Notes under the pieces: generated by a model
The model's input: the letters and a program-made list of their open reading frames with translations, nothing else
What the model was told of the DNA's origin: nothing
Database searches by the model: none
NCBI GenBank assembly: GCA_027605045.1
Contig: JAQFWX010000014.1
Location: 1,113,391-1,177,390, forward strand
Reading direction: 5' to 3'
Source of the DNA: Phallus indusiatus
Lineage: Eukaryota > Basidiomycota > Agaricomycetes > Phallales > Phallaceae
Length of the DNA: 64,000 nt
Made by a program: the position numbers and the translations under genes
Part shown: in pieces, positions 32,217 to 64,000 of the stretch
Position numbering within the stretch: the first letter of the stretch is position 1
How the letters are laid out: every line of letters begins with the position of its first letter

Positions 32217-33232
32217 ATGACCCCTACATCTATCGACCACGGTAGGTGACGTCATGTCAGGAAGACACTGAAGCTGACTTGCGGCGGTCAGAGGCATCCA
32301 ATCCGAAGTCTCTTCTAGCAAGTATAGGCTGCCGCGCTTTTCACGGCATTTCCCCCATCTTAGGATGTGCTGTTAATCTTACAGCTCTCGCCACCCCTAC
32401 TCTGGCAGTCAGTGTCACTTATTTTTCCTTACATTTTTCTCATCGCAGTCTTCGCTCACGTTGTCATTTATCAGACGACGTTTACTCCGAGCGGACCGGC
32501 TGTGGCACAGTGCGATGGTGTATGTCTAGGTTTAATCGTTATCGCTGCACTAGGTGAGGACCTTACGAGCTATTTTTTTCCTCATTCACGAAGCATTTCA
32601 GCGATATACATCGGTCTTTTACTTCTTTTAACCTTGACCTGCAGAAGGATCCGGGGCAGGTGGATTAGCAACTACAGTCACCGACGCACCAATTCCTCAG
32701 CGGTGGCAACCGGCATAACGAGCCTCAATACCAGGAGGTAAGTCTCAATCTTATTTCTCCTGAGATCTTTCCAGTAAGAAGTTTTCCTAGATCACAGACG
32801 TCGGGTTCTTATGAGCTGCCAGTCATTGCTCCTCACCCTGAAGACACTCCCCTACCATCATGCAACATCACTAGCACTCACGACCTCCCTTTCGTCGGTG
32901 TGGCTCCCGATGATCAAACGTCTATTGTAACCGTCACGAACTCCAGCCTTGAATCGGTATCAACATCAGTAACTTCTCTGAACTCAATCAGCACTGGTGA
33001 ATTGTCCATACCTCCTGCGCCTGTTATCTCGACTATTCCACTCCCTCCTTCGGATGACGAATACGATAACCTTCCACAATACAGCCCAATTCGTTACAAT
33101 TACGAAAATCATACCATCATACAGCCCTGGAGTGCACCGGTTGTTGTAGCACAAAGCAATGAGAACGAAATTGGCGATAGATTGAATTTAAACATTGAAC
33201 CGACTGGAAGCTTGGGATTGATTTTGTGGTGA
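32217..33232 (+). CDS. SLGLI-family single-pass membrane protein, plus copy 1
   Basis: Five exons (32217-32241, 32292-32413, 32475-32553, 32602-32737, 32791-33232) give 267 residues, all joins in frame. The short N-terminal part has TTFTPSGPAVAQCDGVC, the membrane-proximal cysteine pair. The helix (GLIVIAALAIYIGLLLLLTL) is split by an intron, then basic CRRIRGRW and SHRRTNSSAV. The tail starts SGSYELPVIAPHPEDT, is rich in serine and threonine, has PPAPVISTIPLPPSDDEYD, and ends TGSLGLILW. I do not recognise a described family. Six intact copies and one broken copy lie in this window. There is no obvious signal peptide, so the helix may act as signal anchor. Function unknown; surface sensing is inference. 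Confidence 0.75.
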
Positions 33233-34500
33233 TGCGGCAGGAGCGTCATTTTGCTTTCCAAATATCAAGGTCACACGTTCACGTGGAAAATGTGAATTTG
33301 GGATAGCAAGAATACTTAAGTTGTGGAATTTGATATGAACAGAAATGCCGTCAGGGCGAGATTGTAGTCGTGCATGTAGGCATGGAAGCCAGAAATTTCG
33401 TAACAAGTCGTGATAAATTTAAATATTAGATCAGTAAACAGTTGATTATATATTTATTCCCATACCTATACCATCGAAGACGAAGGCTGCGCCATAAGAC
33501 AAGCAAGATGATGAACTCGAGCAGTAAAAGGCTTTGTTTGCTATCATCGACGAAACGAATTTGGGGTTTGTAGGCATACCCGTCTTGCCGCGGTGCATCC
33601 GTCTATTGGGGATATGAATTGTCTTGAAGTCAGTAATTTGTAAAGCCCAAAAGATGTAAACAAGATGGATGCTTATTGGATGGCGTTGGATCGGGATATC
33701 GTGCTATCAACATCGCAAGGACGACAAAGTAGATTCTCAGTAGATATGGACGATGGCTTGTTGAAGCGGAATAGTCATCGAGCTCCATTTAGACGTTCTA
33801 GCCTCACCGGGTTGAGTCTGAGTGCTAGCTGTATATGTTGAGCGATGGCTGACCCGGAGAAAAACGTTACATAAACGTTAACGTTAAGGCCTTAAGCGCT
33901 TAAGCTTTAAGGTTCTACTACCAGCGCGCCCACAAAAGTCCAGTCAGTCACAGCGTGTTGTCACTCTCCTGACCACGTGTCGACCAGTTTCATCCTGCCC
34001 AGTGCCCACTCCAAAACTCTTTTCGCGCTATCTCTGTGGCAAAGTGGAGTACATTCATCGCATCAAAAGGCGTTCGAAATTACTGTAGAAAAGAGCTTAA
34101 GCAATCACGCTACACATCAAACGGTTGGTTCTAGTATCCAGTATATCAGAAATATTTTGACGGAATTTTCCCTCCAAATTAGTTGGATTGTCAGAGGTAT
34201 GTGTTTCAAACAAACGAAATTCTGTGGCCCACAGCATGAGTCAAGCATCAAGCAACTTTCATGATGTTATTGTCCTCGATGTGGTCTACTCGGCCTAATC
34301 CATCTATTGTGACAACCTTCGGTAAACGGATAAGCAAAGACTGGCCTGCCTAACGAGAAGACCGAAAGCAGTGCATGATACGGAAGGGCCACGCGACGTT
34401 ATAAAGACCTGGGATGGTGTAGCATCTCCGTCTGTATCAACGACACGCTTATCGTAACCTTCACTCTCCAATTTTTTTCTGTTATAACAACTCAATTCTC
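33233..34500. repeat. Unit spacer after SLGLI plus copy 1
   Basis: No gene is supported. 33300-33990 resembles 47340-48080 and 61200-61930 (shared blocks around cgttctagc-x-caccggg and gcgcccacaa). One pseudo-frame, 33977-34264, is not conserved. Confidence 0.55.
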
Positions 34501-34513
34501 ACATATCATGCCA

Positions 34514-35235
34514 CCAAAAAAAGAACCAAGATACTGAAACGCGAAACGGCCTAGACCCATATGGACAGCGGCGGCTGATGTTTTGACTGTAAGCAACATC
34601 ACAGTCAGTAAGTCCAAACGATGATCGATGACCCCTAGTAAAATCAGCAGAATTTTAGACTTTCTTTGAAAAATTTCATCTGATTGGTAAGCCTTCGTTT
34701 TTTTTTAAATTAAATATACTCAATATCAATTTCTCATGAGTTGCTGTCAGAAGGCCGGACTTGTCCTCGGAAGAAAATGCTCAATGGGTCTGGTCAGAAG
34801 CTGTGTCATCGGCGCGTCAGAAGAAAGTAGTGTGAACGCGCACAAATATTACCGTCATTCTTTGGGCTGTCGATCCCGTCGGAGCACTGAGATACAGTAC
34901 TTATGTTCGTTCTCAGGATAAAAAGATATGAACCCAGCTTATGATTGACTCTTCGGCCAAGGACCCGGAAGTTGTTTCGTACTAGTTGGAAGGAGATCGT
35001 TTACGCACGATGGGGTAGCACAGACTTTATTTGATTGTCAAGACACGGATTCTTTATTGTGGCTGTACTCCAAATTTATGAAGAAGCTTTCAGTGCTATG
35101 ACGTCACACAGCTTTGGGTGTAAGTTTGGCACGCCAGCGTCCCCAGAGCATCCCGATGTTGGCGTCTCCGGAGATACTGAGCGGGTCTACAGCGTTCAGC
35201 TGATTGGTACCGGTCCGATTCCACTTACTTAGTGA
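34514..35235 (+). pseudogene. NLR-type (NACHT ATPase) remnant, copy 1
   Basis: Begins atgccaccaaaaaaagaacc, matching the MPPKRK start of the copy at 62123, followed by the same acag-cg-cgg-tgatg-tttgac block. Later parts (34.8-35.06 kb) match 54.2-54.4 kb and 62.6-62.8 kb, including a conserved tggagatcgtt-acgcacgatgg-gtagcac-like block. The frame is interrupted repeatedly, and the Walker B region visible in the other two copies is not readable here. Identification as NLR-type depends on those copies. Confidence 0.4.
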
Positions 35236-35459
35236 GATGACATCGATTGCACTTTGGAACTAAGGACCCCAGTAACATAAAATCTCATGAAATTCACTAG
35301 TAGTGTGCATGAGAAAATGTATCATGTTCTCAGCCAAGTAATATAGAGCAAATCAATTTAATTGCTTTATATAGAGTTCGCAATCTGAAATTCTGAATGC
35401 CCATATTTTCCAGTAACAACATCTTACTAATTTGACATCATGATGAAGGGGTATCAACA

Positions 35460-36760
35460 TTATTTGAATATCAGTCCCAAGCTTCCATTTGCTTCAAGGC
35501 TGAAATCCGAGTCGCTTGAATGATCGCTATTCACTGGTTGGTTGACCGAACAGCATTGATGTAGGTTATCATTCTCCGAATCAGAGCTGGAATCGCATCG
35601 GAGAATATGATCGTTGGTGCTGAGAGGAGGCAGCGGGATAGTTGAGATTAAAGGTGTAGGAGGCACGGGGGACTCATTGTCGTTGCGAATGATTGTGTTC
35701 GGAGATGTTACCTCAGAGTTGGCGTCTTCCGGCGTGATGCTGAACTCTCTTGTGGGTGTCACGTCAGACGATTCATGGTCTATTTCAGAACTAGGGTTAG
35801 CCACGTTAGCGGAAGCATCCGAATCGTTCAAAGAGTATGGTGGAAGATGATTTCCAGGGTAAGGAGGCAGAGGTGGAAGTTCAATAGACGTTGTCGAGAC
35901 TCGTGATCTGAGAACGACTTGAGGATATGTAGTTAGAGATTAGAGCAAAAATTACCTTCCGGGCTCAAGCCGTGTTGGTGTAGCTACCACTGGGGGGTTG
36001 GTTCGCCGCTGGCCTCCGTAGTAATTTGCAATCCACTGATCCATTCTTCTTCTACAGCCGGGGCCTACGCAGAGGAAAAGGCAGAAGGAAAGGCAGAATA
36101 CCACTTGTTCAACGAACGTCGGTTAATGAATAATGAAGAGTGCCTGTCGGTGCTCTCACCTATTGCAGCAACAACAGCTCCGGCGACGCATACACTTTCG
36201 CAGGTGACGAGTGTCGCACCTTTTGAAATTGTGGTCCCTTGATAGGTGTTTCTACGAGAAATTCCATGTGGATTGGAAGAGGAAAAGAACGTCAAGTTTC
36301 CGCTGGCATTGAATGTATTAGGGACGGTAAAACCAGGAACCTGAGACCGCGTCTGGGTGGTAGATGTGGGACCTCCGGTATCAACCATGACGAGACCCTG
36401 AAGGGCCAATGGACTTTCCTGGGGATTTTCGGGAGTTGACTGTCCTGAAATCCAAGCTAATTCAACTTCGATGTTTCTCCAGCTTGCAATCACATACCGA
36501 TGTGGCTTAGTACAGAGAATCCATGAATATAGTTTCCTGCGCGATCTTGTGGGATTGGTGACATTTATGTGGAAGGTATCGAGCTTGAGTTTCAGTATCT
36601 GGGAGGAATGCCTGAAGAACACGAGTTGCATTATGATTCTTATACCCATCAGTAAATCAGTAAATGTGAAGTAGGTATTCCCGCCGGCGTCATATCGTAG
36701 CATATCGTTCTTGATGCAATAACTCCTTGTGACATCATCTATTATTATAGCCCAATGCAA
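35460..36760 (-). CDS. SLGLI-family membrane protein, minus copy 1
   Basis: Resolved exons: 36160 upstream, 36103-35956 and 35907-35460, with frame kept. The ectodomain includes HWAIIIDDVT, ASWRNIEVELAW, VDTGGPTSTTQTRS, NTFNASGNLTFF and YQGTTISKGATLVTCESVC. The helix AVVAAI-VVFCLSFCLFLCV is split by an intron, followed by CRRRMDQW and GGQRRTNPPVV. The tail starts STTSIELPPLPPYPG, has PPTPLISTIPLPPLS, and ends NGSLGLIFK. It is clearly the same family as the plus copies, but with a longer ectodomain and an acidic, serine-rich tail. The start is unresolved: the frame opens upstream of 36760 with no ATG, so another exon or a lost start is likely. Confidence 0.65.
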
Positions 36761-39700
36761 TTTTACAGAAAGTGCCCCCCGAGGGCTGTTTTATCGGTGA
36801 CTGGCTGTGAGCTTGCGTTAAAAAGGCTATGCGTACGTTTCATTTTTGATAGAAGGCGTGATCGAACGGGTAAGAATATCAAAGGTCCGACTCGGATGGC
36901 CTTTGGCACGAACACGAGCGCCAAGAGACGAACAGAAATATACCTTAGCTCTGCGTAGTGGCGTCCACGGTCGGTAAGCGCTATAACTTGAACTAAATAT
37001 GACTTGGGTATTGGGCCCTTGTGGCTGGACAGATTTAGATACTACAAAATCTAACCTGAACTGGCTCTAGATTTCATAAAATGATAACTGAGAATACATA
37101 ATTAGCAGCTTAGCATGTTGATGAAAAATACTGAGATGAAATAGTGAGATATGAGAACAGAGTGTTGGGCGTTGATTGATGTCATATTGATGAGCTTTGG
37201 AACTGAAAGTAACCAGCGCATGTTGGCCGCGTGAACAAAAAAGAGATTCGCTCAGTGCTGTCAATGATGGTTGTCTGCGAAAAAGATTGCTCCCGTTCAA
37301 GATTTAGCCAAAATGAGTCCTAAAGCTTAAAGCCTACTGTATCTTGCTTACATAGATAAGTGCGAACCCGATAAAGTGTGATCCAGAATGAATGCACTAA
37401 TGAGGAAAGGCTGTACCATATTTGATATACGGGGTGCGCATGTTGGTCCGCAAACGGTATTGGTGCGTCATCGATATGGGCGAATGGTCGAACTTTGACT
37501 TGCTTTCCTAACGCTTAGAATGTATAAAAGTGACAGGGAAAATATTTTTACGACTTGGTTTAACTTAGTGCTGAATAAACCCATATGAAGATCTCATCAA
37601 CGGCATCGACTGCTATGAGACCATCAAAATAAAAGTGTCAACAAACTGTTAAGAAGGGAATTGGGAAATTTGGACCAAGTTATAACTAAGATGACTCGGA
37701 CAGTAAACGGAAACTTACAGGATAGCTAAGCTGGCATGGGGCTCTCTTTTCAGTCCTCTCACAAGATCTTCCACCCGCCGGCAACAGCGCTTCCTGTTCA
37801 TCACTGTCAGATCGACGTGGGAACCAAGGTAGATAACCAGCGTTCATTTCAGCCTCTCTTCAAAATCAATCAAATTATGGACAGCCGCCGCGAAACCAGA
37901 TTATTGATGCACATTGATCCAGTAAATTTAGACCTAATAATGACATTGATAGAAAGCGGAATAAAGTGTGTAAAAATAATCTAAATCAGGGGCACACCTG
38001 GTCTCTCAGAAAACCTATACTGTCACTGAGTGGCTCAAACGCCAGATAATCTCGTTCAGAGTGTAAATAGGAAGCTCAGGACTGCTCGAACCGGTGGACC
38101 CAGTGAACTGCAGCACGATACCAGAAGGTGAAAGCGACATTACCATCAACATCGGTATGTGTGCCCCGTTTTCTCGATAAAGAGAGTGGGGTGGAAAAGC
38201 TGTGTGTCAATCTTTAGAATGTGTATCTTCCACGAGAGTAATTAGCAGAGGGTTTGCTCTGCTATTTATCGACATTGATTACATACGTTTAATGTTCGTA
38301 AAAGCTCCAAATATCCGAATACGACCGGGCCAATCAAAACCAGTCAGAATATAGGTAGGCAATCTCTCTCTGGAAGTAGTCTTTCCCAAAATTGAATATG
38401 CCGTTTCATCTCCATGATAATCTGTCCGATACTATTCCGATCAATATAGCTTCGACGTCAGTAAAACGTTTTGTACGCCCAAAGCTCAAGTGCGCCTGTT
38501 TTGACAGAAGAAAGTAGATTTTCCGACTATGAATGTGCCGTTGGTCGCTGGAGTGTACTGACCGCCAGTTTTATGAAACAATGCCGGCATATCTAAGCTG
38601 TAAAGAAAGTTTATCAGCATGCCATTAAGTGTTTTGTAAAGGTTGGGAATATCACACAATCTTTGCCGTAGTTAGAACTTGGGGATATCTACTCTTCTCT
38701 AGTGCAAAAGATAAGATTGATCAACTATCACTGATGAGGTAGCGTTACCTATATTTCTCCGAGGCAAAATAAATAACTCTCAATCCTTCTTTAGCCCGAC
38801 GTAAACTATTAGTATCTTGGAGTTGACTGTTGAGCGCTAGCCAGTTAGCCACCGGTGAACGTGGTACACCGTACCGCCAGACAGGCTTCGAGAAGTTGAG
38901 TAGGTGAACGGCCATAAATAAATCACTGCATCCACCGCACTTGAGCTTGAAGCTCGAAGCATCGCAAGTGCTGGTGTGGGTAGAGTTCAAATTTCGGACC
39001 ATCAAATTCACTGATGGGAGTCGGGGATTAGTCATTTTTAGCGCCCCGTGTCATGACTGCCCTCGACAGCAACGCGCACAACTGTTTTTTTGGCCAATGA
39101 CGCTCCATCGACGATACCGTTGCAGTGCACACTGCTATTAGATCTGCAATCAACGAGTTTTCTGCTACTTGGGATCACCCGACTACCTTTCATCACCCTA
39201 TTGGCAACTAATAGTCGGCGGTGTTCTCAGCTGCAGGCCTAGGCGTCATGGGACGAGCAGTGAAATCCTCCAACACTTTCAGCCTGTTGTGGTTTGGTAT
39301 CGATTACAATTACGGAAGAAAATATGTGAAAGCTCATCACCCGAACAAGCAGACGATTTGGCGGACCCGGCGTCGCTTTCTTTAGGATTTTCTTGTGCTG
39401 GGCGGTCACAGAAACTCAGTGGCGGCTTGGTGGCAGGAGTGTATATAAATTAGAGGCCTGGAGCAAGCATGTGATAGTTCAACGCTTCACCGTTCACGCT
39501 TAATAGCCATGAGTTCTCAGCTTGCTGGTTGCCCCGATCGTGCTTCGACAAAAGCGGCGACTAAGCTGCGTGTCTGTATCAATCCAGTCAAATTTCCACT
39601 CTATTCTTGTCAGAGTCGAAGGTGAATTAACTCGGTCGGTCCCAATTCCAGAACGTTCAGCGGACTAACAGGATTTCGCCTGACTGAGACTCTCGGTATG

Positions 39701-40559
39701 CTTCTCGCTGAGCTTCTCATAATAACTTGTTCGCACTACGCCCACTACGCGCCTGGCAAGCGACTCAAGCGCATCCGTTAATGACGCCACGCGACGATAC
39801 CACCGAGAAAAGTCCCTATACATCGGGCCATGGGCCATGGCCTCTGGGACTCATTGATTCACACACACACAGATACACTTCTTCGCAAATGAGTTTATCC
39901 ATATCCCTAATGATTTTCACAGAGCATCAATTATCATTGGATTGTTGCTAGGTCAACCGTTCGCGACTGCCAGGCAAAAGATGTTAAAAGGCTGGACTCA
40001 TAACATACGCCCCTTCGTTGGACGCCAATTCAAAGATTTTTTCATCATCTATCTGGAATAGGTTGTTTTGGAACATGTTATGAGAACGAATTCTATCAAA
40101 TGACAATACAGTTCTTATTTTAAGTGCGACGGTCAGCCAAACCTAATCGGTTCGCGGTGTTCGTTTTTAGATGTTTCCTGCTCCGAGACATAATACATTG
40201 TGCCAACGCTTTTTCCTACATTAAAGACTCCAAAGAAGAAAATAATAACATTGGCGTATACATGAAATTAAGCACAAACATGAACAGAATTAGGTTCCGA
40301 GACATTGATTGATGATAAAAAGAAGTGAGGAACTGATCCTGCTCAGCTCTACATTTGTTGGCTTTATCTAGATCGTACAACCCGTGCATTATTGGTTTAT
40401 ACCTTGGTACATGGCATCTCACCGCGTAATCCCGAGTTTTTAGGATTTCCTTATATGGTGTTGTCGTTCATATTATTCATAACAATTTAGTCGCAAGGAC
40501 GGCGGCGTGCAACAGGTTTTCATGAGACTTAGTTCAGAAACCATCGAAAGCCCATAGAA
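36761..40559. repeat. Long non-coding spacer of unit 1
   Basis: Several stretches match 56.2-58.3 kb in the same order: 37.55-37.85 with 56.6-56.9, 38.5-38.9 with 57.05-57.45, and 39.03-39.65 with 57.55-58.15. No frame is kept between the two copies. It may contain ancient gene remnants beyond recognition, for example 39169-39453. Confidence 0.55.
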
Positions 40560-41821: not shown

Positions 41822-43557
41822 ATGGATAATGCTACCTCTATCAACGTATTCGCATCAGAAAAGTCAATTCAAGATGCATATCTAAAGTGGGTTCTATCTC
41901 ATTGCTCAAGCTTTCGATGGTTGTCTTACAGCAAGATGCTAGTTATGCCTACATGCTTGTTTCTGTCAGCGTGTTCGGTGCGTTATCTCACATCCAATTG
42001 CTAATTGAATAGTTCAATAGAAGTGACACTTCATCGACAGCACTCCTTCTTTATACTACGGTGTTGAATATATCACGAGAAGTGATGTACATATGGTTAT
42101 CGCCCAAACCATTCAGTATTCCGACTCTACTTTACGCTTTCACGAGATACGGAATGTTAATCAGTCAAGGTGCTGCCGTTTGGTTGAGTTTTATTGCGCC
42201 AGTAAGTCAATCTATCTTGAGATATATAAACAACACTGACGAAATCTTTTCAGGGAGAAAGGTAAGATATCCATGGCCACGAAAAATGGGAAGCTAACGA
42301 AGGAGAAAGTTTGTGCACTAACCTGGGCAACATCGAAAATGCTACGCTCCTTTTTACATATATTGGTTCCCAGGGTTCGTGTCGAGTATATACAGTGGTT
42401 TGTAACGCTTCTATATTCATCATTAGTAGGCATATTAGTTATTCGCACGTACACGTTGTGTCAAGGGAACAAGGTTATAGCTGGGGTTTTAGCCTTATTT
42501 TTCATGGGAGGGTTTGTTACCAACCTTTATGGTAAGTATCGCCGATGATACACTCATGAATAATTGCGACTTAATTTCTTTTATGGCTTAGGCTACATAT
42601 TGAATAGTGGATGCTCTACAAGGTCGGTAATAAATTTCAAATCATGCCAGTTTGATATCTAATCCTCGAATATCCTCAGCTTCAGTCGTAGGTCTGAAAG
42701 AAGCATACACACGATAATATGTTAAATGCTGTGATATGATCTAGCCAGAGGTCTCATAATGCCTTCTGTCTCTAATATTTGCGTTCTTTCAACGGAATCA
42801 CTTGTATTTTGGGTTTGCCTGTGGAAGATTTGGGGTACATGGAAGTTAAAGGGCGAAACTGGCATTCGAAGAAACAATGACCTTGTTTCGATGATGCTCA
42901 GACAGGGTAGGCTTAAATCATATGCTTAGTGAATTTATCTTTTATAGGGAAATGCAGTTCTGTCGCAGTTTTGGTACGTTTAAACTGTTACGTACATTTA
43001 ATTCGTCAGAACGCTCATTTTCACCTTCCGACAAAGCTTCGTGGTTGTTTTCACCAACGCTCTTACAATCGTTGATCTAGTAAATCCAAACTCAACTCCG
43101 ATCACTGCTAATTTTCTGAATTTATTCTCTTTCTCAGATCAGATTGAAAACCGTACGTACAATCTGTGTTGAACCAAGTGTGGTTCTACTGATCCAATTT
43201 AAATTGAAATTAAATATCATGTTAGGATGCAATAGGTATCTCGGGAAATTTTCAACACGGGTATGGTCCATCCTTCTCGTCCTTGACCATGACGTTCATC
43301 TTTGTGTTATATAAAGCTTTTCGACGATTTTGATCACCAATTTTACTTTGGATCTTCGTCAACGAAATTCGGCAGTCATTGAAACTACGAATGTAACGCT
43401 ACCGACCATTCAATTTCGAAGCTTGGTGGAATATGTACATCGATCTATTACCGTAGAAATGGGCGATCATGAAAACGTCAGCGGGATGATAGACGACAAT
43501 CTCGGTGTGCCGGAAGGATTTTCGGACGCTGAAGTTGGACGCGGAGAATTGGCCTAA
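41822..43557 (+). CDS. DUF6533-type seven-helix membrane protein, copy 1
   Basis: A basidiomycete-specific family of GPCR-like integral membrane proteins of unknown function. The start is MDNATSINVFASEKSIQDAY. The family's signature region reads STALLLYTTVLNISREVMYIW, then PTLLYAFTRYGMLI. Further helices appear in LVIRTYTLCQGNKVIAGVLA and LIFTFRQSFVVVFTNALTIV. The last helix runs into STILITNFTLDLRQRNS, matching the usual end of the seventh helix. The cytosolic tail (VTLPTIQFRSLVEYVHRSIT) is shared with copy 2 at 49401-51145. Most of about seven introns were placed by eye. I see no obvious break, but not every join was checked. Confidence 0.7.
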
Positions 43558-46254: not shown

Positions 46255-47244
46255 ATGACTACGTCTACGGACTACGGTGGGTGACGACATCTCAAGAAAA
46301 CGTTAAAGCCGCTGACATGCGACCAGAGGTATCCAATCCGAAATCTTCTCCAGCAAGTATTGGCGCTGTTTACGGCATTTCCCCTATCTCGAGATCTGCT
46401 CTTGCCACTCCTACTGTGGCGGTCAATGTCAGTGTACATACCCCTCCTTACACTTCTTTCATCTCAGTCCTCGCTCATGTTATTGTCTTTATCAGACGAC
46501 GTCGAGTCCGATTGATCCAGCTGTCGTATGCGATGGTGTATGCGTAGGTGGAATCATTTTTGCTGCAGTAGGTGAGAGCCTTAACAAGCAATGAGTATCT
46601 CTCTATTCACCGAGCAATTCCCAAACACACTTACTTGGCAGTGATATGCATCGTACTTTTACTTTCTTTGGGCTTCACTTGTAGGGGCCGTGACAGGTGG
46701 TCTAGAAATTACGGTCAGCGAAGAACCAATTCCTCAGCGGTGGTAACCGTAACAAGTCTCAGCCCCAACAGGTTGGTTTCATCTTATTTTCTAGATCTTT
46801 TCTGTTATGAGTTTCCCTAGATCACAGGCGTCAAGTTCTCATGAGCTGCCAGCCGTTCCTCCTCACCTTGAAGACACCCTCCCACCGTCATACGACAACG
46901 TTCGCGACCTTCCTTCCGACAATGTGACTGGCGATCAATTGTCTACTGTGACGCTCACAAACTCCAGCTTGGAATTGGAACTAACATCAGTAACGTCTCT
47001 GAATTCAATCGGCTCCGGTGAACTGTCCATACCTCCTGCGCCTGTTATTTCGACCATTCCACTCCCTCCTATTGACGAATACAGTTATCATCCTCAATAC
47101 AATACAATTCCTTTCAATTACGAAAATCATATCGGCATACACCCCTGGTCTGCGCCGGTTGATGCACAAAGCCATGAGAACGAGGACGATAGCTTGAATT
47201 CAAACACGGAACCGACTGGAAGCTTGGGATTGATCTTGGGATGA
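46255..47244 (+). CDS. SLGLI-family single-pass membrane protein, plus copy 2
   Basis: Five exons (46255-46276, 46327-46427, 46496-46571, 46642-46771, 46821-47244) give 250 residues with frame kept. Features: VVCDGVCVGGIIFAAV continuing across the intron as VICIVLLLSLGFTCRGRDRW, then YGQRRTNSSAV, SSSHELPAVPPHLEDT, a Ser/Thr stretch, PPAPVISTIPLPP, and the end TGSLGLILG. It is the most diverged plus copy (for example NYENHIGIHPWSAP versus NYENHTIIQPWSAP in copy 1), yet every motif and intron is kept. This argues that the protein is under selection. Function unknown. Confidence 0.75.
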
Positions 47245-49400: not shown

Positions 49401-51145
49401 CTATACTAAAATCGACCCAGTTTCCGAACATTCAGCTTCGACCTCGGGAAGATCGTTATCACCTCCTTCGAGGACCATCACATCGACGTTTTCATAATCG
49501 CTCATTTCCACCATAATGGATTGATGTATATAATCCGCCATGCTCTCAAATGAAATGGTCGGTAATGTTATACTTGAAGCTTGAATTACTGCCATGTTTC
49601 GCTGACGAAGTTCCAAAGTGAAACCGGAAATTAAAATGGCGGATAAACTTGATCAGACAGTGAGCGTAATGACCTCGGGACGGTAAAGGCAAACCACACC
49701 TAGTCTCTAAACTGCCTAAAATAGCGACTACAACCTATATGAATCTGAGTTAGAAACTGCATCGGCATATGTGTCATTCTGAACAGAGCGCATTTACGAT
49801 ATTACACTTGGTCTACCAAAAAAAAATAATCAAGCTCCAGAAAACATGATCAGAAAAGTTGTCTTAGATCTCACCAGGTCAAGTATTAGAAGAGCACTGT
49901 CCAAAATAACTATAGCGCTTTCTAAATATCAGAGATTGGTAGAAGAATTAACTCTTGTTTGAACCTACCCAAACCGTGATACAGCTTTAATTACCTATCA
50001 GAAGCAGTTTTGTTAGGGACATAATCAAAGCCTACTTTGTTTGAGTAATACTGAAACAATGCCATTATGATTTCTGATTCCAATTTCACCCTTCGACTTC
50101 CATGTACCCCAAACCTTCCATAAACTAACAAAAAAGACAAGTATGTCTATTGAAAGATAGAGAATATTTGAGATTGTGCCTGTCAGGAGAGAAACGGCTG
50201 AATTATATCACGATCCTTAGAATTATCATTACGATTCAGAGGTACACTTCTAAACCTACGTGAAATGCTATAGAACCATTTTAAGATCAAATCATAGTTT
50301 AACATAGCCTGAAACTTATCACAAACCCGATTTGACCGTTAACGCAGACATTAGTCCCTACCATGCCTACAACAAAAGTCAAATATGCTACGTTTCCCAT
50401 TGTACTGATAATTTTTACCATAAAGGCGGGTGATAAGCCCTCCCATGAGGAAAAAGGTTAAGATTCCAAATATGACTTTGTTCTCCCCAGATAATGCGTA
50501 CACTCGAATGATCAATATACCTAATAATTATGCGTGTATTTAAAACCATTCCTAAAATGCGTAAAACATGTTTTACACTCACATACGGCACCAATAGTCG
50601 TCGCAGATATTGCAACACTTTCTAGGATATTCAGGAGATTACAAAAGCTTTCTCTCCTTTTGAGTTTCCCATTTTTTTGTGGTAACGATGTCTTACCTCG
50701 CCTGCATCAATAAGCACTTGTGTAGATTATCTGAAAACGGCTCAAAATTGTTCGGCTTACTGGCAAAAAAAACACCCAAAGGACAATTCCTTGACTGACT
50801 AACACTCCATACCTCGTAAAAGCGTAAAGTAGAGTTAGAATGCTGAAGGGTTTGGATGATAGCCACATATACATTGCTTCTCGTGACATATCTAGCACCG
50901 TATTATAGAGAGCAAGTGCTAAGATATTACTTTTGTCATTGAACTAGCGTATCAGATAGTATAAAATAACGCACTGAAGCTACTGGCACAGACGAGACTG
51001 AAAACGTATCTAGTATATGATTATCAGATGAACACCTAATATTCGAGATAATAACCCACCCTAAATACAGTTCTTGGATTAGTTGTGAAGGGACCGCACT
51101 ACCAGTAGTGGAGGTGGCATTGATAGCACTGTTGTTATGATTCAT
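49401..51145 (-). CDS. DUF6533-type seven-helix membrane protein, copy 2
   Basis: Paralogue of the gene at 41822, in opposite orientation. ATG 51145 opens MNHNNSAINATSTTG. The signature reads ALALYNTVLDMSREAMYMWL, then LTLLYAFTRYGVLVSQG. Another helix exon reads LIIRVYALSGENKVIFGILT followed by FFLMGGLITRLYG. The last exon reads ILISGFTLELRQRNMAVIQ and a tail with VTLPTI-like SITLPTISFE and MADYIHQSIMVEMSDYENV, closely matching copy 1. Introns sit at matching places. No break was seen in the exons examined. The long upstream frame to 51472 is probably not translated. Confidence 0.68.
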
Positions 51146-53480: not shown

Positions 53481-53499
53481 GTTTTCCGGACCATAAAAT

Positions 53500-54640: not shown

Positions 54641-54810
54641 ATTTTGCATTGCGTGAGAAGATGTACCCTGATGTGCCAAGTAGTATTATTTATAGCGCAA
54701 ATCAATTTAGCTGAACAAATACTTTGTATTGAGAGTTCGTAACTCGAATGCTTATAGCCAAGTAGCAATAACATCTTATTATTAATCTAATCTGACAGAA
54801 AGGATCAACA

Positions 54811-56160
54811 TCATTCGAATATCAGTCCCAAGCTTCCAATTGTTTCAATGTTGAAATTTGAGTTGTAGTCCCCACTTGAATTATCGTTGTTCACAGGTTG
54901 GTCGGCTAAAAAGCCTTGATGTATGCCGTGATCACTCGCTGAATCGGAGCTGGAGTCGTGTTGGGGAATATGATTGTTGCTGCTGAGAAGAGGAAGCGGG
55001 ATGGTCGGAATTAAAGGTGTAGGAGGCACGGGAAATTCGTTGTCATTGCCAACAGATGTTACCTCGGAGTTTGTGTCTTCCGGTGCGATGCTGAACTCTG
55101 TTGCAGATACCGCGTCGGACGATTCATTGTCTGTTTCAGAACTAGCGTTGGCATCGTTGATAGAAGCATCTGAGTCGAACAAAGAGTATGGTGGGAGATG
55201 ATTTCCAGGGTAAGGAGCCTGAGGGAGAGGTGGAAGTTCGATAGACGCTGTTGAGACTCGTGATCTAAAAACGACTTGAGGATATGGAATTTAATATCAG
55301 AGCGAAAAGTACCTTTCGGGATCAAGCCGTGTTGGTGTATTTATCACTGAAGGGTTGGTTCGCCGTTGGCCTCCGTAGTAATTTTTAATCCACCGATTCA
55401 TATTTCTTCTGCCTAGGCAGAGAAAAAGGCCGAAGGAAAGACAGAATACCACTTGTTCAACGAACGTCGGTTAATGAACATAAAGAGTGGCTGTCGGTGC
55501 TCTCACCTATTGCAGCAACAACAGCTCCGGCGACGCATACACCTTTGCATATGAACAATGTCGTACCATTGGGAATTGTCGTCCCCTGATAGTTGTTTCT
55601 ATAAACGATAATATGAAGGTTGGAAGGGGGAAAGAAATTAAAGCTTCCGTTGGCGTTGGATAAGTTGGGGGTAGTAGAGCCAGAAACCTGAGATTGTGTC
55701 CGAGTGGCAAAGGATGTAGGACCTCCGGCATCAATCATGATGTCGAGACTCTGAAGGATCAATGGACTTTTCTGGGGATATTCCAAGTTGAATTGTCCTG
55801 CATCCAATTTGATTCAACTTCAATGTCTCCCCAGCTTGACATCACACATACCGATGTAGCTTGATACAGAAGATCCACGTGTAGAGTTTCCTGCGTGACC
55901 TTGTGAGACCGGCGACATTTACGTAGAATATATAGAACTTGAGTTTCAGTATCCGGGAGGAGTGTGTCTGAAGTGCCGATATTTTAAACTTGAAAGAGTT
56001 GTGACTCTTATACACATCGAATGTAGGACTAATCTCGATCTACCCAACTACCCACCCATCGAATGTCAATATTCTAAATTGGGACATACCTCAACATGAT
56101 GTGTGCCCTGATATAATCGGATGATTCGGTATCCACAAATTTATCATCTATTTTTATACG
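54811..56160 (-). CDS. SLGLI-family membrane protein, minus copy 2
   Basis: Exons 55264-54811 (tail) and about 55460-55313 (helix and basic part) are clear and in frame. Upstream, 55807-about 55507 codes the ectodomain end (DAGGPTSFATRTQSQ, NANGSFNFFPPSN, YQGTTIPNGTTLFICKGVC). Near 56150 HWRIKIDDKFVDTESSDYIR matches the N-terminal block of minus copy 1. The helix reads AVVAAI-VVFCLSFGLFLCL, followed by GRRNMNRW and GGQRRTNPSVI. The tail has PPTPLIPTIPLPLLS and ends IGSLGLIFE. Part of the ectodomain between 55.82 and 56.08 kb shows stops in the matching frame, so the N-terminal half may be damaged or differently spliced. Confidence 0.58.
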
Positions 56161-58814
56161 CCAATGGATAAAAGGCAAATATTTTAAAAATCACCAAGTT
56201 TTGTCCGTGGCTGTGCGTACGCGATCTTCGAAAAGACAAACAATGTCAATACCTGACTAGCGCCAAGAGATAAACTATCCAATCTGAACTGGCGCTAGAC
56301 TTCATGGGCGGGATAATAACTGTGAAAACAGCTATTTCAACTAATTTTTTAGAACAAGGAAATGTACTTTATTAAATAAAAGATGAATGCTGTTGCTGCT
56401 GAAGTTGATGGTGGGGTCTGGAATCCAATCATAGGGACGTGAGACCTAAATGAATGGAAGATCTGGTATGGAAAAGCTGTGCGATAATTGATATACGGCG
56501 TTTAAAAACGGTATTGGTGCACCATCGACATTGGCGGATCGGGAATCGTGACTTGGCACTTAAACGTTATAACGTTACGGAGGTGGCACGACAGATAATG
56601 TTACGGGTTAGTTTGTCTTAATGCTGAATGGCCCATATGAAGATTTGATCAACGGCATCGACTGTGATGAGATCATCAATAAAAATGTCGAACAAACTAT
56701 TACAAAGGAGACTTACAGATTCCAGAATAGGCAAGCCGGCAGCTCCTTTCGATGCTTCGCTCACGGATACATACAGTACCCACCAAGCCCTTGATTCCCT
56801 CTCAAAGATCTTCTATCCACCGGTGACAATGCTTCCTGTTTGTCGATGCAACATCAGAGTGGGAATCATCAACTTGAAGACAGATACCTCGCATTCTTGC
56901 ATTTCAATACTCTAGGCTCGCTTTGCAATCAACCTATCTGTACAGCGCATAGTGACAACCGGAATGAATTCAACACACGTGAATTCAACACACCAGAGGG
57001 TTTGATCTGCTGCACATGACATTAATTAACACACCCAAAAAAAACTAATGAGGTAGGTTCTGTCTGTTTGTGCCGTTTGGCCGCTGTTGAGCTGGGAGCG
57101 TAATTGGCCAGTTTTATAAAGCAACTGCGTAGATATGAATCAAGACTGGTCCATTTTGATTGTGGAAAAAAGGTTAATCAGCCATTACCCTTAGGTATTT
57201 TGAAAAGGCTGGAATCGTACAATCTCCGTTCTGAACCCGGGAATATCTAACACAAAGGATAAAATAGATCAATCAAGATATACTGATGCGATAAGGTTAC
57301 CTATGTTTACCCAAAGCAAAATAAACAACGTCACATCTTTATTTGGGTCGACGTAACTATTGGTACCTTGATGTTGAGTCATTGCCAGACAGGCCCCGTC
57401 GTCCGAGCTGAGCAGGTGATACGGAGAACCAAAATGGAATCCCGGCAACTACGAGAGTTGTCTTTGGTTCCTTCGTTGTAATACTTAATAAGATTTTGAC
57501 AGAACCTCACGGGCACCGAGGCTAGTGCCAGTCTACACTCTGGGTTATGGGTGTTTACATAGTCGGAAAGTCATTTTTGGCGCCCAGTGCCGGCCAGTGA
57601 TTGCGCGTCCAGCTGTTTTTGACCAAGGAAATCCACTGCTCTCAATTCGGCGACCAGCAAGCTTGGGATTTCATCCAACCATATTTCAGTACGAATTATA
57701 ATTCGTTACTAGAAACTATTCAAGTATTTTTAGGGGTCAGAAGTTAGAACGAGTGTACACCACTGAAAAGTCAGGGCGATCTGGCCATCCGGTGTCATTT
57801 ATTTCATTTTTTTAGGCTTTTCTTTTGTTAATGGTTGGTCAAAAGACCTCAATGGCAGCTCAATAGCAGCAGCTAAGAGCTTAGAGACTTGGAGCATCCC
57901 ATCGTGTAATGGTTCAGCTTTAACGTTCGCGTTCAATGATCATGACTCCGATTACTCATTTTGGCTCTCCTAGCTCGTTGCGTCTTACACCGATCATGCC
58001 TCGAAACCAGCACCGACAAAGATGCGCATCTGAATCACTCCAGTCAGATTCTCGCTTTATTTGTGTCAGAGTCGGTGAAGGATCGGCTCGGTTGGCCAGA
58101 TCTACTACTAGTAGGACGTTCACCGTACCAATGATTTATCATTTCGCCCTGACTGCGACTCTTCACGTGCTTTTCGCTAATCGTTAATGAGCTTCCTATT
58201 TTCCAAAAAGGATTACCCTCTATCACAGGTGCCGGTGATCGACGCGGGAAAGCAAGGGGCTGATGTAGATACTACTGCTTGATGATTACTGCTACTAGGC
58301 CAACCATTGTGACCGTCGGAAGCTGGGCTCATGATATACACGCATTTTAGGCACCAATAAAGATTTTTCCCATCTCCTTCCCGAAATAGACCATAGAGAA
58401 AGATTTATTGGCCGACGGCTTATCCTTGATTTAGGTGCAACAGTCCATAGATGCCAAAATGATTCGCTGTGTTACTGTCTAGCCTATATTCCCCGTCCAG
58501 ACCGAGACATAGTATATCAACGGTTTTTTGTACGCTGGTAATACAGACCTTGAAAGCTCAAAAAGTATAACAATGACGTCTATCAGTGAGTACATATACG
58601 CGAAAATAGAATAAGTTTTTGAGACACTCCATAGCGATAAAAGAGAAGTATTTTAGAACAAGGAATTGGTCTTACTTGGCTCTAATTTGTGCGTTTTGTC
58701 TAGATTATCACATCTTGGTACATGTTATCTCACTGCGTAATCCCAGGTTGATGTGCTCTTGCACGAGACTGTCTTATTAGCATGTTGCGGTAAGTTCTCA
58801 TTTGACTCAAACTA
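56161..58814. repeat. Long non-coding spacer of unit 2
   Basis: Second copy of the spacer at 36.8-40.5 kb, shorter and diverged. No frame is kept. Minor short frames, such as 57936-58187, correspond to non-open sequence in unit 1. Confidence 0.5.
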
Positions 58815-59102
58815 TTATCTCATGAGAATAAGTTCAGAGACCATCAAAAGAGCAGAACACGGCTTCCAAAGAATTTGGGAATCATCTCGTACACCAGCGT
58901 AGTTACCCTCAAGAGCGGAGACAGCAAAAATGGCGAGGGTAATAATAACCATCCCGCTCACCTTTGAAAGTATGTAAAGCCGGGGAACTGAGCACGGATA
59001 TAATCGGAGGCCAGAGGTCTTTTCGACCATATTCCACATGATGGATACATATGTAGCTATCGACGGTGCAGGAAACAGCCAAAAAAAACTACACAACGGC
59101 AA
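58815..59102 (-). pseudogene. DUF6533-like membrane protein remnant
   Basis: Minus-strand frame with helices ATYVSIMWNM and SGMVIITLAIFAVSALEG and then PCSALLMVSELILM. It corresponds to 40560-40800 in unit 1. I read it as one or two transmembrane exons of a lost seven-helix gene. Confidence 0.45.
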
Positions 59103-59129
59103 TGCAGATCATCTCAGGCCCTACGCTTT

Positions 59130-59400
59130 AATAATGGGAAGCTCACCCAGGAAGATAGATTGTGCAGTGACCTGGGCAACATACAAAATGCTCCACTCCT
59201 TTATATTATATTGGTTCTCAAGGTTAGTGTTAAATATATACCGTGATTTCGAACGCCATATTTACGATCAATAAGTATATTAATTTTTCGCGTGTACACG
59301 TTGTGTCAAGGGAACGAGGTTACAGCGCCCTGGGGCTAGCTGGGGCTTAGCCTTATTTTTCGTGGGAGGGCTTATCACAAACCTTTTGGTAAGATCGGTA
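59130..59400 (+). pseudogene. DUF6533 gene remnant (matches 42270-42540)
   Basis: The sequence from gggaagct through the tgcactaacctgggcaac-like block to cgtgggaggg matches the second and third helix region of the gene at 41822, but with stops and a duplicated ctggggcta stretch at about 59327-59345. The rest of the gene is gone, so unit 2 has lost its right-hand DUF6533 gene. Confidence 0.55.
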
Positions 59401-59500
59401 AGGATCGTTATTACGAGCATTTTTGGTAAGGAAGATAATGATCGTTATTACGAGCATTTTTGGTAAGGAAGCTAATGATCGTTAGGAAGCTAAGGATCGT
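59388..59500. repeat. Short tandem repeat of about 38 bp at the unit 2/3 junction
   Basis: Two near-identical copies of a unit containing gatcgttattacgagcattt, followed by shorter partial copies of taaggatcgt. It lies exactly where unit 2 ends and unit 3 begins. Confidence 0.75.
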
Positions 59501-60033
59501 TGATGCACTTATGGAAATATTGACATGCCAATTGAATAGCCACGCGCGTCAACTATATTGGACACAGGCAAAAGGTATTGTTTATTTGTGTTCGCATTTT
59601 CCGAGTGCTTATGTCCTCAGACCTAAGAACCGGGTTCGCGTTGAACAAAGAAGCGAATTGGACTATTGGATAGCGAGGTCCAGCCAGTGGCAGAGGGAGC
59701 AGGTATGTATGATGCGCTGATTCCAGAACAAGCCGCGGGTCCGGTGCCAGATCCATTATTTCGCAGAACAAAGGCTTCTGGGAAATTATTGAGATTTGTT
59801 TTTGAACGGAAAAAGGTCCAATAGAACACTTTGTGGGCTCGGTAATGGTGAGAACAACCGGTGGTAGATCAAATTCTCTTGATATATTTTTTTTAAAAAA
59901 AGAAGCACAGATCTAGAAGCACATTTTTTCATCAGGTCTATTCTGCTATTCTGCCTACTTCCACCAATGAGACTGCTCAAAGGCTAAAAAAGCTATGCTC
60001 CGTTTTTGTATCAGGAACATGCAACTGACTTCA

Positions 60034-60149
60034 CGCCAAGATAAAAACTCATTGACCGTTTTCAATCCCTATTCCACAAAGCTTCACCGAATATCTCGCC
60101 TGTCCTCTTCCAACATACATTCTATTTGCAACAACCTGATACCTGCTAG
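60034..60149 (+). promoter_or_regulatory. Conserved upstream region of plus-strand SLGLI gene 3
   Basis: Matches 32101-32216 almost throughout, including acgcca-x-gataaaaactca and the caaagcttcacc block. Confidence 0.45.
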
Positions 60150-61159
60150 ATGACACCTACAGCTATCGACCGCGGTAGGTGACGTCATGTCAGGAAGACA
60201 TCAAAGCTGACATGCGTCGGGCTTCAGAGGCATCCAATGCGAGGTCTAATCCAGCAAGCGTAGGCGCTGTTCACAGCATTTACCCTATCTCGGGATCTGC
60301 TGTTAATCTTACAGCTCTCGCCACCCCTACTTTGGCAATCAGTGTCAGTACACTTATTTTTCTCTCATCGCAGTATTCGCTCACGTTGTCATTTATTGGC
60401 AGACGACGTTTAGTCCGAGCGGGTCGGCTGTGGCACAGTGCGACGGTGTATGCCTAGGTATCGTTGTTGCTACACTAGGTGAGGACCTTGACGAGCAATG
60501 AGTATTTCTCCATTCATGAAGCATTTCTTAACAGCAATATGTATTGGACTTTTACTTTCTTTAGCCTTGACCTACAGAAGGAACCAGGGAAGGTGGTTTA
60601 TAAAATACAGTCACCGACACAACAATTCCTCAGCGGTGGCAACCGGTGTAACAAGCCTCAATACCAGGAGGTTAGCTTCAGTCTTGTTTCTTCTAAGATC
60701 TCTCTGGTTATGAGTTTTCCTAGATCACAGACGTCAGGTTCTTATGAGCTGCCAGTCATTGCTCCTCACCCTGAAGACACTCCCCTACCGTCATGCAACA
60801 TCACTCACGACCTTTCTTTCGTCAATGCGACTCCCGATGATCAGACGTCTATCGTTACCTTTACGAACTCCAGCCTTGAATCAGTATCAACCTTAGTAAC
60901 TTCTCTGAACTTAACCAGCACTGGTGAACTGTTCATACCTCCTGCGCCTGTTATCTCGACCATTCCACTCCCTCCTTCGGATGACGAATACGATAATCTT
61001 CCGCAATACAACCCAATTCCTTACAATTATGAAAATCATACCAGCATACAGCCCTGGAGTGCACCGGTTGTTGTAGCACGAAGCAATGAGAACGAAATTG
61101 ACGATAGATTGAATTCAAACATTGAAGCGACTGGAAGCTTGGGACTGAGTTTGTGGTGA
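60150..61159 (+). CDS. SLGLI-family single-pass membrane protein, plus copy 3
   Basis: Five exons (60150-60174, 60228-60343, 60403-60478, 60535-60670, 60724-61159) give 262 residues, frame kept. Features: TTFSPSGSAVAQCDGVC, the split helix GIVVATLAICIGLLLSLALT, YRRNQGRW, SHRHNNSSAV (a change from R-R-T-N), SGSYELPVIAPHPEDT, PPAPVISTIPLPPSDDEYD, and the end TGSLGLSLW (S in place of the usual I). It is the closest relative of plus copy 1. Function unknown. Confidence 0.75.
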
Positions 61160-62109
61160 TGTGGCAGGAGCGTTGTTTTGCTTTACAAAGAAGATCAAGG
61201 ACACTCGTTCACGTGGAAATTGCTAATTTAGGATAGCAAGAATATTTAAGTTATGGAATTTGATATGAACAGAAACGCCATCAGGGCGAGATTGTAGTCG
61301 TGCATGTAGGCATGGAAGCCAGAATTTTTTGTAACAAGCTTCGTGATAAATTTATATATTTAGGTCAGTAAGTAAATACAGCTGATCACATATCTATTCT
61401 CATACCTATATCATCGACGATGGAGTCCGCACCATAAGACAAGCAAGTTGATGAACTCGAGCAGTAAAAGGCTTTGTTCTGCTATCATCGACGAGACGAA
61501 TTCGGGATTTGTAGGCATACCCGTCTTGCCGCGGTGCATCCGTCTATTGGGGATATGAAATGTCTTAGGGCCAGTAATTTGCCAAGCCCAAAAGATGCAA
61601 ACAAGATGGATGCTAAATGGATGGCGTTGGATCGGGATATCGTGTTATCAACATCGCAAGGACGACAAATGTGGATTCTCAGTAGATATGGACGATGGCC
61701 TGTTGAAGCGGAGTAGTCCTCGAACTCTATCTAGACGTTCTAGCCGCACCGGGCTGAGTCTGTGTGCTGCGAGCCTGCGATGGCTGAGAAGAAAGTCAAA
61801 GTTCTACCAACGCGCCCACAAGAGTCCAGTCCAGTCGGTCACGGTGACCAGCGTGGTGTCACTTTCCTCCTGACGTTCACGTGTCCACTGTCGACCCCGG
61901 ACCGATCTCATCCTCCCAAAAATCTCTTTACGCTATCTCCCATACGAGGCAGAGTACAGCCATTGTATTGAAAAACGTTTGAAATTGCTATGTTAAAGAG
62001 CTGAAGCAATTACGCTACACGCCAAATTGTTGCCTGGACGTCTTCAGTTTGTGTATAAACGACACACTTACTCTCCACTTTCATTAACCATGCTCTCATA
62101 ACAACTCAC
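61160..62109. repeat. Unit spacer after SLGLI plus copy 3
   Basis: Matches 33240-34000 closely (including agacaagcaag-tgatgaactcgagcagt-like blocks) and 47250-48080. No conserved frame. Confidence 0.55.
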
Positions 62110-63060
62110 CTCTTCACATATTATGCCTCCAAAACGGAAAATAGACTCATACGCTGAAGCTTCGGGTCAAACGAAACGGGCTAGGCCGATAGTGACAGCG
62201 ACGGTTGATGACCGATAGTAACATAAAACCAAACGATACGTAACACCCAAAATCAGCTTTCGACGTGCCCACGACAATCAAATGGCCGGACGTATCACTG
62301 AATTCCAAACCAACCTCCTGGGGGTTCGAGAGTCGAGACCAAACGGGCAATTCCATTTTTCGCTTTAACGTTCGTTGGGAAATATTCATATTTGAATTCT
62401 CAACGGATTCAATTTAGCATGCAAGGCTTGGAAAAATCATGACAACATGACGTTGTCGACGAGTTCCTGCCTGGTCAAACCCTAATCACCGGACCTATCA
62501 CCACTATTCGCTCATTTCAAATAAAACCGATCATTGTTGTCGATGCTTTGGACGAAAGCAACAACCGCGCGGTCATTTGGAGATACTACTTTGATGGTGC
62601 CTTTAAATCTGACTAATCATTGTACAGTACTTCTTCAGGCGAAAAGATATAGAACCTATGTTTGTCCGCAGTATGATCAAAAATACAGCCTATTTTATAA
62701 TCAAGTCCTCCAGGACCCAATTGTTCTGTTGGAATGGAGATCGTTTCCTGACGAAACACGGACGAGACCGAGGTTACGATGGAGTGGCACGGATTTTACT
62801 GAGAGCATCAATTCTGTATCTTATTGGTTGCATTGACTAAGAGAAGCTGCCAGTGGGCAAAACCGACACTACTCACTCTGCTACACAGGATCCGGACTTT
62901 GAACTTTCATTATATATGTAGCATTTTTCCTTGGGTCAGCATCTGTGACTGCGCTGTGTTCTATCAATATGTCAATGCAGCTATGAGCTCCACTGTTGGC
63001 ACTTGGCACTAAATATTCGCAATGAGCGTCCCCGATCTAGGGGTTGTAATACGATGGGTG
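62110..63060 (+). pseudogene. NLR-type (NACHT ATPase) remnant, copy 3
   Basis: Best preserved copy. It starts atg at 62123 with MPPKRKIDSYAEASGQTKRA, a basic N-terminus of the kind seen in mushroom NLRs, then a stop after VTATVDDR. Around 62480-62600 it reads GPITTIRSFQIKPIIVVDA followed by LDESNN, a good Walker B. The next stop follows within 20 codons. Later blocks match copies 1 and 2. Walker A and repeat domains are absent. Confidence 0.55.
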
Positions 63061-63427
63061 ACGTATGTATGAAACAGTTCTTTTTACGAATCTCGTGTTC
63101 GCATTGGTGCAGTGTGCATGACAGGCCAAAGCGAAGCATTAATCGCGTGATTCGATTTAATATTATACTAGTATATATAAAGTTACAATGAGCATACATA
63201 TTTTCTGGAGTTAAACAAAGTGTAGTAGCATTTGTGGTTAGTTGGAGAATCACTTGTGGTGATCAAAATTATAACATATTGCGTAAACATATAATTCGTA
63301 AATCGTTGATGCTCTCGAGGGGAAATACTATTACGCACGTCCCGATTTGAAGCAGTGTGGGATTCATGGCGAATGGGCATATATCACACTAATCTGACGT
63401 GGAGAGGGGATCAACATCATTCAAACA
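63061..63427. other. Spacer between NLR remnant 3 and SLGLI minus copy 3
   Basis: No gene recognised. It is the counterpart of 35.24-35.46 and 54.64-54.81 kb. Confidence 0.4.
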
Positions 63428-64000
63428 TCAATCAAACATCAATCCTAAGCCTCCAATTGCTTCAAAGTCAAAATTTGGGTTGTAGATCTCGCTTAAATTA
63501 TTATCCACCCGTTGGTTGACTGAAAAGCTTTGATGTATACTATCATCACTATCATCATTCTTTGAGTCGGAGCTGGAGTCATCATGTTGGAGGATATGAT
63601 CGTTGCTGCTGAGAGAAGGAAGCGGGATAGTTGAGATTGAAGGTGTAGGAGGCACGGGAAATTCATTATCACTGCCGATGGTTGTGTTTGCTGACGTTAC
63701 CTCGGAGTTGTTGTCTTCCGGCGCGATACTGCACTCTGTTGAGGATGTCGCGTCGGATGAGCCATCGTATGATTCAGAACTAGTGTTGGCAACGTTAACA
63801 GAAGCATCTGAGCCGTTCAAAGAGTATGGTGGGAGATGATTTCCAGGATAAGGTGGAAGAGGTGGAAGTTCGATAGACGTTGTTGAGACTCGTGATCTAA
63901 AACCGACTTAAAGGATATGAAATTTAATATCAGAGCGAAAAGTACCTTCTGGAATTAGGCTGTATTGGTGTAACTACCACTACGGAAGGGTTGGTTCGTC
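63428..64000 (-). CDS. SLGLI-family membrane protein, minus copy 3 (cut by window end)
   Basis: The tail exon (about 63894-63428) is complete: STTSIELPPLPPYPGNHLPP, then a serine/aspartate-rich acidic stretch, PPTPSISTIPLPSLSSNDHI, and the end IGGLGLMFD. After an intron (about 63895-63944) the R-R-T-N exon begins and runs off the window. The end is the most diverged of the family (GGLGLMFD versus GSLGLIFK), but the reading frame is intact. Confidence 0.65.

Follow-up and report, generated by a model that had tools for sequence, protein, structure and literature searches.

Short transmembrane proteins with PPxY or LPxY (PY) motifs, such as Rcr1, Comm, PRRG, and Shisa, affect the surface levels of other membrane proteins (PMC5578492), and the WW domains of the ubiquitin ligase Rsp5 recognize PPXY or LPXY (PMC2810449); both papers, and PMC10531659 below, are cited from excerpts. 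Here we describe a multicopy family of predicted single-pass membrane proteins from the fungus Phallus indusiatus that may act similarly. It was proposed from sequence alone in a 64 000-nucleotide stretch of DNA (the window; C45:1113391–1177390 in a 67.2 Mb, 206-contig assembly), where six complete spliced frames now bear out that original prediction; our account goes beyond it in copy number, in dividing the family into three classes (long, short, and third), and in identifying convergent pairs and PY motifs. At slightly under even odds (a probability of about 0.48), we read these proteins as a lineage-restricted family of PY-motif transmembrane adaptors that would recruit an Rsp5-type ligase of the same genome. 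We infer that the tandem LPPY of the long-class tail likely binds the WW domains of this ligase and that the bound ligase would be brought to partner membrane proteins; the family may thus decide which membrane proteins get removed, with the short class, in which the first PY tyrosine is missing, as a possible weaker or competing partner.

Yeast Rcr1 and Rcr2 resemble the family in the basic residues that follow the helix. They are likewise short transmembrane proteins with cytoplasmic PY motifs (in Rcr1, PPSY and VPEY, of which VPEY binds Rsp5; PMC5578492). The family differs from them in having, in most cases, a pair of LPPY at fixed pitch, as well as C-x-x-V-C and large paired arrays; the RCR profile (PF12273) matched none of eight members (Pfam-A, E<=5), and a whole-assembly search for RCR was empty, its positive control giving no signal either. 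Drosophila Comm and the vertebrate PRRG proteins are also short and transmembrane, with LPxY and PPxY in the tail; Comm and two PRRG proteins lack a signal sequence, and Comm is poorly conserved outside its motifs (PMC5578492). The family, in contrast, is fungal; it lacks a Gla domain, matches nothing else in Pfam or among solved structures, and combines a shared core with an SLGLI-like end, features not described for Comm or PRRG in the excerpts of PMC5578492. The Shisa-like proteins (Shisa, CYYR1, WBP1, and VOPP1) are comparable as single-pass adaptors with outside cysteines and a proline-rich PY tail (PMC5578492, PMC10531659). Most of them have six cysteines in the pattern C*C*CC*CC (PMC5578492), whereas the family has one conserved C-x-x-V-C, the window ectodomains sharing two cysteines, and no signal peptide. 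Yeast Ear1/Ssh4, Tre1/2, and Bsd2 are membrane-bound Rsp5 adaptors with PY motifs, as is proposed for the family; Ear1 and Ssh4 carry SPRY domains (PMC2810449), while the Pfam scan found no SPRY in the family. By the tests made, the family thus belongs neither to RCR nor to the Shisa-like proteins, and it most likely works as the PY-motif transmembrane adaptors do. Fungal wall sensors (WSC, Mid2) have a signal peptide and a WSC or Ser/Thr-rich mucin ectodomain; the family has no signal peptide, no WSC or related Pfam match, and an ectodomain of 55–118 amino acids (aa) in 14 models.

Lineage-restricted orphan families are common in mushrooms, and fungal genomes hold many orphan single-pass proteins that offer no functional handle. 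The handle here is a constrained tail with tandem PY motifs, a drifting ectodomain, and long and short paralogs kept as convergent pairs. If the tail does bind an Rsp5-type ligase, transmembrane ubiquitin adaptors, which are known mainly from yeast and animals, would have undergone a lineage-specific expansion here, and the paralog without the first PY motif that lies beside many members would offer a natural control.

All six window genes, A to F, splice to complete reading frames of 250–320 aa. They lie at the six loci first proposed, for which the coordinates originally given are start codons on the plus strand and stop ends on the minus strand:

32217–33232, plus strand: copy A, short class, 267 aa; exons 32217–32241, 32292–32413, 32475–32553, 32602–32737, 32791–33232; spliced model, introns predicted
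35460–36564, minus strand: copy B, long class, 315 aa; exons 36498–36564, 36160–36444, 35956–36103, 35460–35907; spliced model; convergent partner A
46255–47244, plus strand: copy C, short class, 250 aa; exons 46255–46276, 46327–46427, 46496–46571, 46642–46771, 46821–47244; spliced model, introns predicted
54811–55918, minus strand: copy D, long class, 316 aa; exons 55852–55918, 55507–55797, 55313–55451, 54811–55264; spliced model, equal to protein record P0001; convergent partner C
60150–61159, plus strand: copy E, short class, 262 aa; exons 60150–60174, 60228–60343, 60403–60478, 60535–60670, 60724–61159; spliced model, introns predicted
63428–64553, minus strand (window part 63428–64000; C45:1176818–1177943): copy F, long class, 320 aa; tail exon 63428–63896, helix exon 63946–64096 with only its end inside the window; spliced model; convergent partner E

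Copy F extends 553 bases beyond the window, the remainder being taken from the assembly.

A search with eight members against 5.8 billion proteins, using a length filter that excludes lone tail exons, yielded two records identical to copies of this genome (P0001 and P0002) and one diverged relative (P0003). P0001 (316 aa from a 1740-base contig) is letter-identical to the spliced model of D; P0002 (301 aa from a 1122-base contig) is letter-identical to the spliced model of a copy that lies 32 kb outside the window, at C45:1209459. Because unspliced genomic DNA cannot encode them in one frame, both are taken as spliced transcripts, splice-aware prediction being the alternative origin. As far as these two records show, the family is at least partly expressed; for the other copies we infer expression. 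P0003 shares 44% identity with L022, a copy of the third class, and retains VPPY, LPPY, PPTPLIRTVPLP, and GSLGLIF; since it reaches at best 55% identity to any place found in the assembly, it probably comes from a related species. In the protein collection, none of the 7994 scored candidates was a homolog of the plus-strand (short) class at E<=1, and the short-class introns are therefore predictions.

Within the genome, the tail of copy B matched 35 places (whole assembly, both haplotypes counted; E 2.8e-91 to 8.7e-4), which together with the identity of P0001 to D argues that the family is not a product of chance. Contig C1 repeats many of the C45 family places in the opposite order; the assembly thus seems to contain both haplotypes of a dikaryon or diploid, one of which would include the window. 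Pfam-A gave nothing better than E 0.073 for the eight members, NCBIfam nothing better than E 0.026, and the PDB sequence search no match at E<=5; a fold search with a low-confidence model (mean predicted local distance difference test score, pLDDT, of 41) returned 34 matches, all at E > 4 and uninformative, and among open-access papers none was found that describes this family in its title or the opening of its abstract. By these sequence comparisons the family is real and undescribed in the libraries searched, in agreement with the initial failure to recognize a described family. The word "new", applied to it at the outset, needs qualifying, since the search covered no annotated fungal protein collection and, through the length filter, no lone tail exons, and the literature covered was open-access.

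The PY motifs are one basis for the proposed adaptor role. Behind the single helix (missing from P0003), [LP]PxY occurs in 13 of 15 proteins and [LPV]PxY in 14 of 15; the 19 [LP]PxY motifs compare with a mean of 1.3 and a maximum of 6 in 2000 tail shuffles, a count that overstates the significance because related copies are not independent. The arrangement is exemplified by copy B:

35835–35870, minus strand: tandem PY motifs of B (LPPYPGNHLPPY), with LPPY at protein positions 180 and 188 (pitch of eight residues)

The eight-residue pitch is found in B, F, L004, L006, L030, and L022 (with VPPY first in L022) and becomes nine in P0003; four of the five long models have the LPPY pair at the eight-residue pitch, D retaining only the second motif, and long copies 12, 13, and 15 also show the eight-residue tandem. 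PY motifs are kept even in the distant L030 and P0003. A candidate partner is encoded on contig C89 of the same genome, where three WW domains (114739–115308) stand beside a HECT domain (113297–114419) in a gene that by this domain content is an Rsp5-type ligase.

Selection was assessed by the ratio of nonsynonymous to synonymous substitution rates (dN/dS; Nei–Gojobori) against neutral simulations with the observed transition share, for five of nine long and four of nine short copies. The long-class tail has a dN/dS of 0.36 (neutral mean 0.73), and 0 of 200 simulations were as low. Neither the long-class ectodomain (0.64, neutral mean 0.72, 21/200 as low) nor the long-class helix region (0.65, neutral mean 0.78, 20/200) is clearly below neutral; the short class gave 0.79 for the ectodomain (neutral mean 0.87, 73/200) and 0.61 for the helix region (23/200). 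Two third-class tails gave 0.49 (9/300 as low), and alleles of a founder-like locus (0.56, 65/300) and one third-class allele pair (0.64, 131/300) showed no departure from neutral. Only the long-class tail falls clearly outside the neutral range; it is therefore, among the parts tested, the part kept by selection, and only there is purifying selection clear.

Several observations besides the dependence among copies weigh against PY-dependent ligase recruitment. At the site of the first PY tyrosine, eight of the nine non-relic short copies have H and the ninth has R, and a degenerate tail exon described below reads HPYLE there; another PY motif is kept or gained in only part of the short class, so PY binding cannot be the role of the whole family. 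The short-class tail is only weakly constrained (dN/dS 0.62, 11/200 as low), its differences being spread equally over the three codon positions (130/125/130). The founder-like copy L048 has no PY motif in the part of its sequence obtained, and L027 has only VPPY. The tail element with the widest distribution, P-x-x-P-x-I-x-T-x-x-L-P, is itself no PY motif and is not accounted for. Besides WW domains, SH3 or other domains can read proline-rich tails, and the tail might accordingly be a scaffold for SH3 or other proline-reading domains instead of WW, as the proline-rich core (of the type P-P-T-P-L-I-P-T-I-P-L-P) common to all classes, L048 included, would allow; the PY motifs, however, lie far above chance and mostly at an eight-residue pitch, and we hold a scaffold to be the least probable of the readings considered. 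Calcineurin docking (PxIxIT), a clathrin box, and a PDZ C-terminus were also considered for the conserved tail peptides, and none fitted, as judged by eye.

The alleles add a further point on the same side. In four of seven allele pairs the proteins are close (identical aa: A 253/267, B 314/315, D 313/316, L004 317/320), and the frame of copy A is complete on the other haplotype too. The tails diverge in the remaining three: L026/L049, at 77% (108/141), the founder-like L030/L047 (C1:2955977/C45:384125), at 79%, and T_16/L022, at 87%; L026/L049 (C45:1200636/C1:2221910) sits next to a difference between the haplotypes, and its members are perhaps not simple alleles. Divergent alleles are needless for an adaptor and fit a recognition family, which lowers the odds of an adaptor slightly. 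The outside part of a cell-surface receptor or recognition protein would bind a ligand or a neighbouring cell (in allorecognition, mating, or wall sensing) and the tail would signal. Such a role is consistent with the multicopy cluster, with a predicted outside N-terminus that in 13 of 14 models has between one and four N-glycosylation sites, and with the C1 counterpart of F (L007), which gave no helix exon. It is nonetheless unlikely, though foremost among the alternatives, given the four close allele pairs, ectodomains without clear constraint or diversifying selection, the absence of a signal peptide or a known ectodomain (Pfam, PDB), and the location of STE3 receptors on other contigs. A link to a mating locus was rejected, the STE3 matches (several over the curated cut-off) lying on contigs C153, C120, and C61, away from the family array. 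Taken with the shortness of the introns, these matches point to a basidiomycete.

The predicted topology consists of an outside N-terminus without signal peptide, C-x-x-V-C, one helix, a basic stop, and a disordered inside tail. Proteins of the window copies start with MSP, MPP, MTP, or MTT, and an in-frame stop codon immediately 5′ of the ATG in all six genes argues against a signal peptide upstream, unless an intron ends there. All 14 models that include the helix have a 21-residue hydrophobic stretch (mean Kyte–Doolittle 2.44–3.05), with 0–2 basic residues in the 20 before it versus 5–9 in the 25 after it, from which the tail is predicted to be inside. In AlphaFold2 models of three sequences, mean pLDDT reached 74–83 only at residues 111–130 of a helix spanning 109–146, with an overall mean of 41. 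A Kre9/KNH-like Ig fold, a by-eye idea for the ectodomain of B, was rejected: the N-terminal exon reads MSPIPQ... and has no Pfam match.

The conserved motifs largely follow the original prediction, with exceptions in single copies. C-[ED]-x-V-C holds in four of six copies but reads C-K-G-V-C in D and F, and is hence restated as C-x-x-V-C; R-R-T-N is present in five (R-H-N-N in E), E-L-P opens the tail in all six, and the core P-P-x-P-x-I-S-T-I-P-L-P is departed from only in D (I-P-T). The C-terminus, described as fixed, is S-L-G-L-I in four copies but SLGLS in E and GLGLM in F, and so is conserved rather than fixed. Across eight aligned members (L048 excluded), the invariant columns include both cysteines, R and W after the helix, E and P of E-L-P, and P-x-x-P-x-I-x-T-x-x-L-P.

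Of the intron positions, proposed to be the same in plus and minus copies, those of the phase-1 helix intron and the phase-2 tail intron are shared by all six, but the three plus copies have an extra predicted intron of phase 0. Long-class B, D, and F thus have four exons with intron phases 1,1,2, and short-class A, C, and E five exons with phases 1,0,1,2. The helix intron has phase 1 in 12 of 12 models, with L022 in agreement, and in 10 of the 12 it comes after the tenth residue, counting from the second cysteine (one residue fewer in E, one more in F); its position is common to all classes to within one residue. The L019 model is without the phase-0 intron, and the first intron of L026, only 31 bases in the model, is doubtful. 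A first splice choice for C and E was rejected for its poor donors and replaced by sites fitting A, C, E, and L026. Models excluded before counting were L020, L006_C1, and L030_C45 (no full frame with the sites tried) and the unsolved L012 and L026_C1; L022 and L027 were kept with no model of the first exon, and L048 without a C-terminus, as the stretch used stops short of the stop codon.

The window overlaps an array at C45:1138218–1317050 (∼180 kb) with at least 22 family copies or pieces, namely ten short (a relic included), nine long, and three third-class, in a list compiled from several searches giving lower bounds. Eight of the 21 neighbouring junctions are convergent, seven of them between a short and a long copy and one between a long and a third-class copy. 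The left half of the array has its short copies on the plus strand and its long ones on the minus, and the right half the reverse. The paired and outlying elements are as follows:

Convergent short/long pairs: A/B, C/D, E/F, 26/4, 13/23, 12/20, 21/91
32097–37575: duplicated unit of pair A/B with its intergenic DNA, matched (blastn) by the pair at C45:1200636/1203371
C1:2955977/C45:384125 and C1:2630961/C45:773672: two isolated founder-like loci on the same contigs

Since the match to A/B, nearly unbroken (32098–34377, 34541–35183, 35228–35294, 35309–36776, 37100–37244, and 37401–37575), spans intergenic DNA, the pair is a unit of duplication. A tree built from 19 tails (without L_21, T_05, and the relic) splits the three classes and supports left-half long (100/100), right-half short (99/98), and, less strongly, left-half short (91/87) groups, the right-half long copies forming no resolved group; such left and right groups within classes suggest that the long/short pair is older than the two halves of the array. 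The founder-like loci have intron phases 1,1,2 where modelled (L030, L048), and L048 is without the first of the two cysteines. The convergent pair might itself be a two-part control unit, in which the long protein recruits the ligase by its tandem PY motifs and the short one, whose helix is related but which is missing the first PY tyrosine, pairs with the long protein or competes for cargo as an anti-adaptor, the arrays being a lineage-specific expansion of matched pairs; we regard this elaboration as quite improbable.

Alternatively, most copies could be decaying paralogs of a single useful ancestor, with the founder loci and a few long copies at work and the arrays representing neutrally drifting duplication debris. 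One member of the array is indeed a relic; a broken copy had been proposed at 24690 on the plus strand, and it exists but lies slightly downstream:

24828–25013, plus strand: relic of a tail exon of the short class (57% identity across 65 aa, E 4.8e-5), with three stops (2 TGA, 1 TAG)

Decay would also account for P0002 and the long copy at 1313970 ending early, for the C1 allele of the gene of P0002 being out of frame, and for the weak constraint on the short class. We judge it improbable, ranking behind recognition, because none of the six window copies has lost its reading frame or splice sites, purifying selection acts on the long tail, and two long copies were found as spliced records. 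The out-of-frame C1 allele (L005, C1:2211684–2215073) leaves frame in the ectodomain exon, and the C45:1209459 allele is intact. At the C1 counterpart of F (L007, C1:2223578), the tail exon is kept and no C-x-x-V-C/helix exon was found upstream; the distance from F to the next pair is 23 kb on C45 versus ∼1.3 kb on C1, and F therefore appears intact on one haplotype only.

Other features of the window adjoin the family. The relic lies between tandem repeats at 22590–24221 and 25671–27265, which are 80–89% identical in aligned pieces, and an open frame at 26556–27221 in the second of these matches cytochrome P450 (Pfam). Between A and D, a short and a long copy, blastn gave no match other than the 41 bases coding for the SLGLI end (33185–33225 versus 54818–54858, 85% identical). 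Copy C is flanked by the arms of a 154-base inverted repeat (42039–42192 and 50767–50920), which are 79% complementary and separated by 8.6 kb; the repeat may represent two copies of a mobile element.

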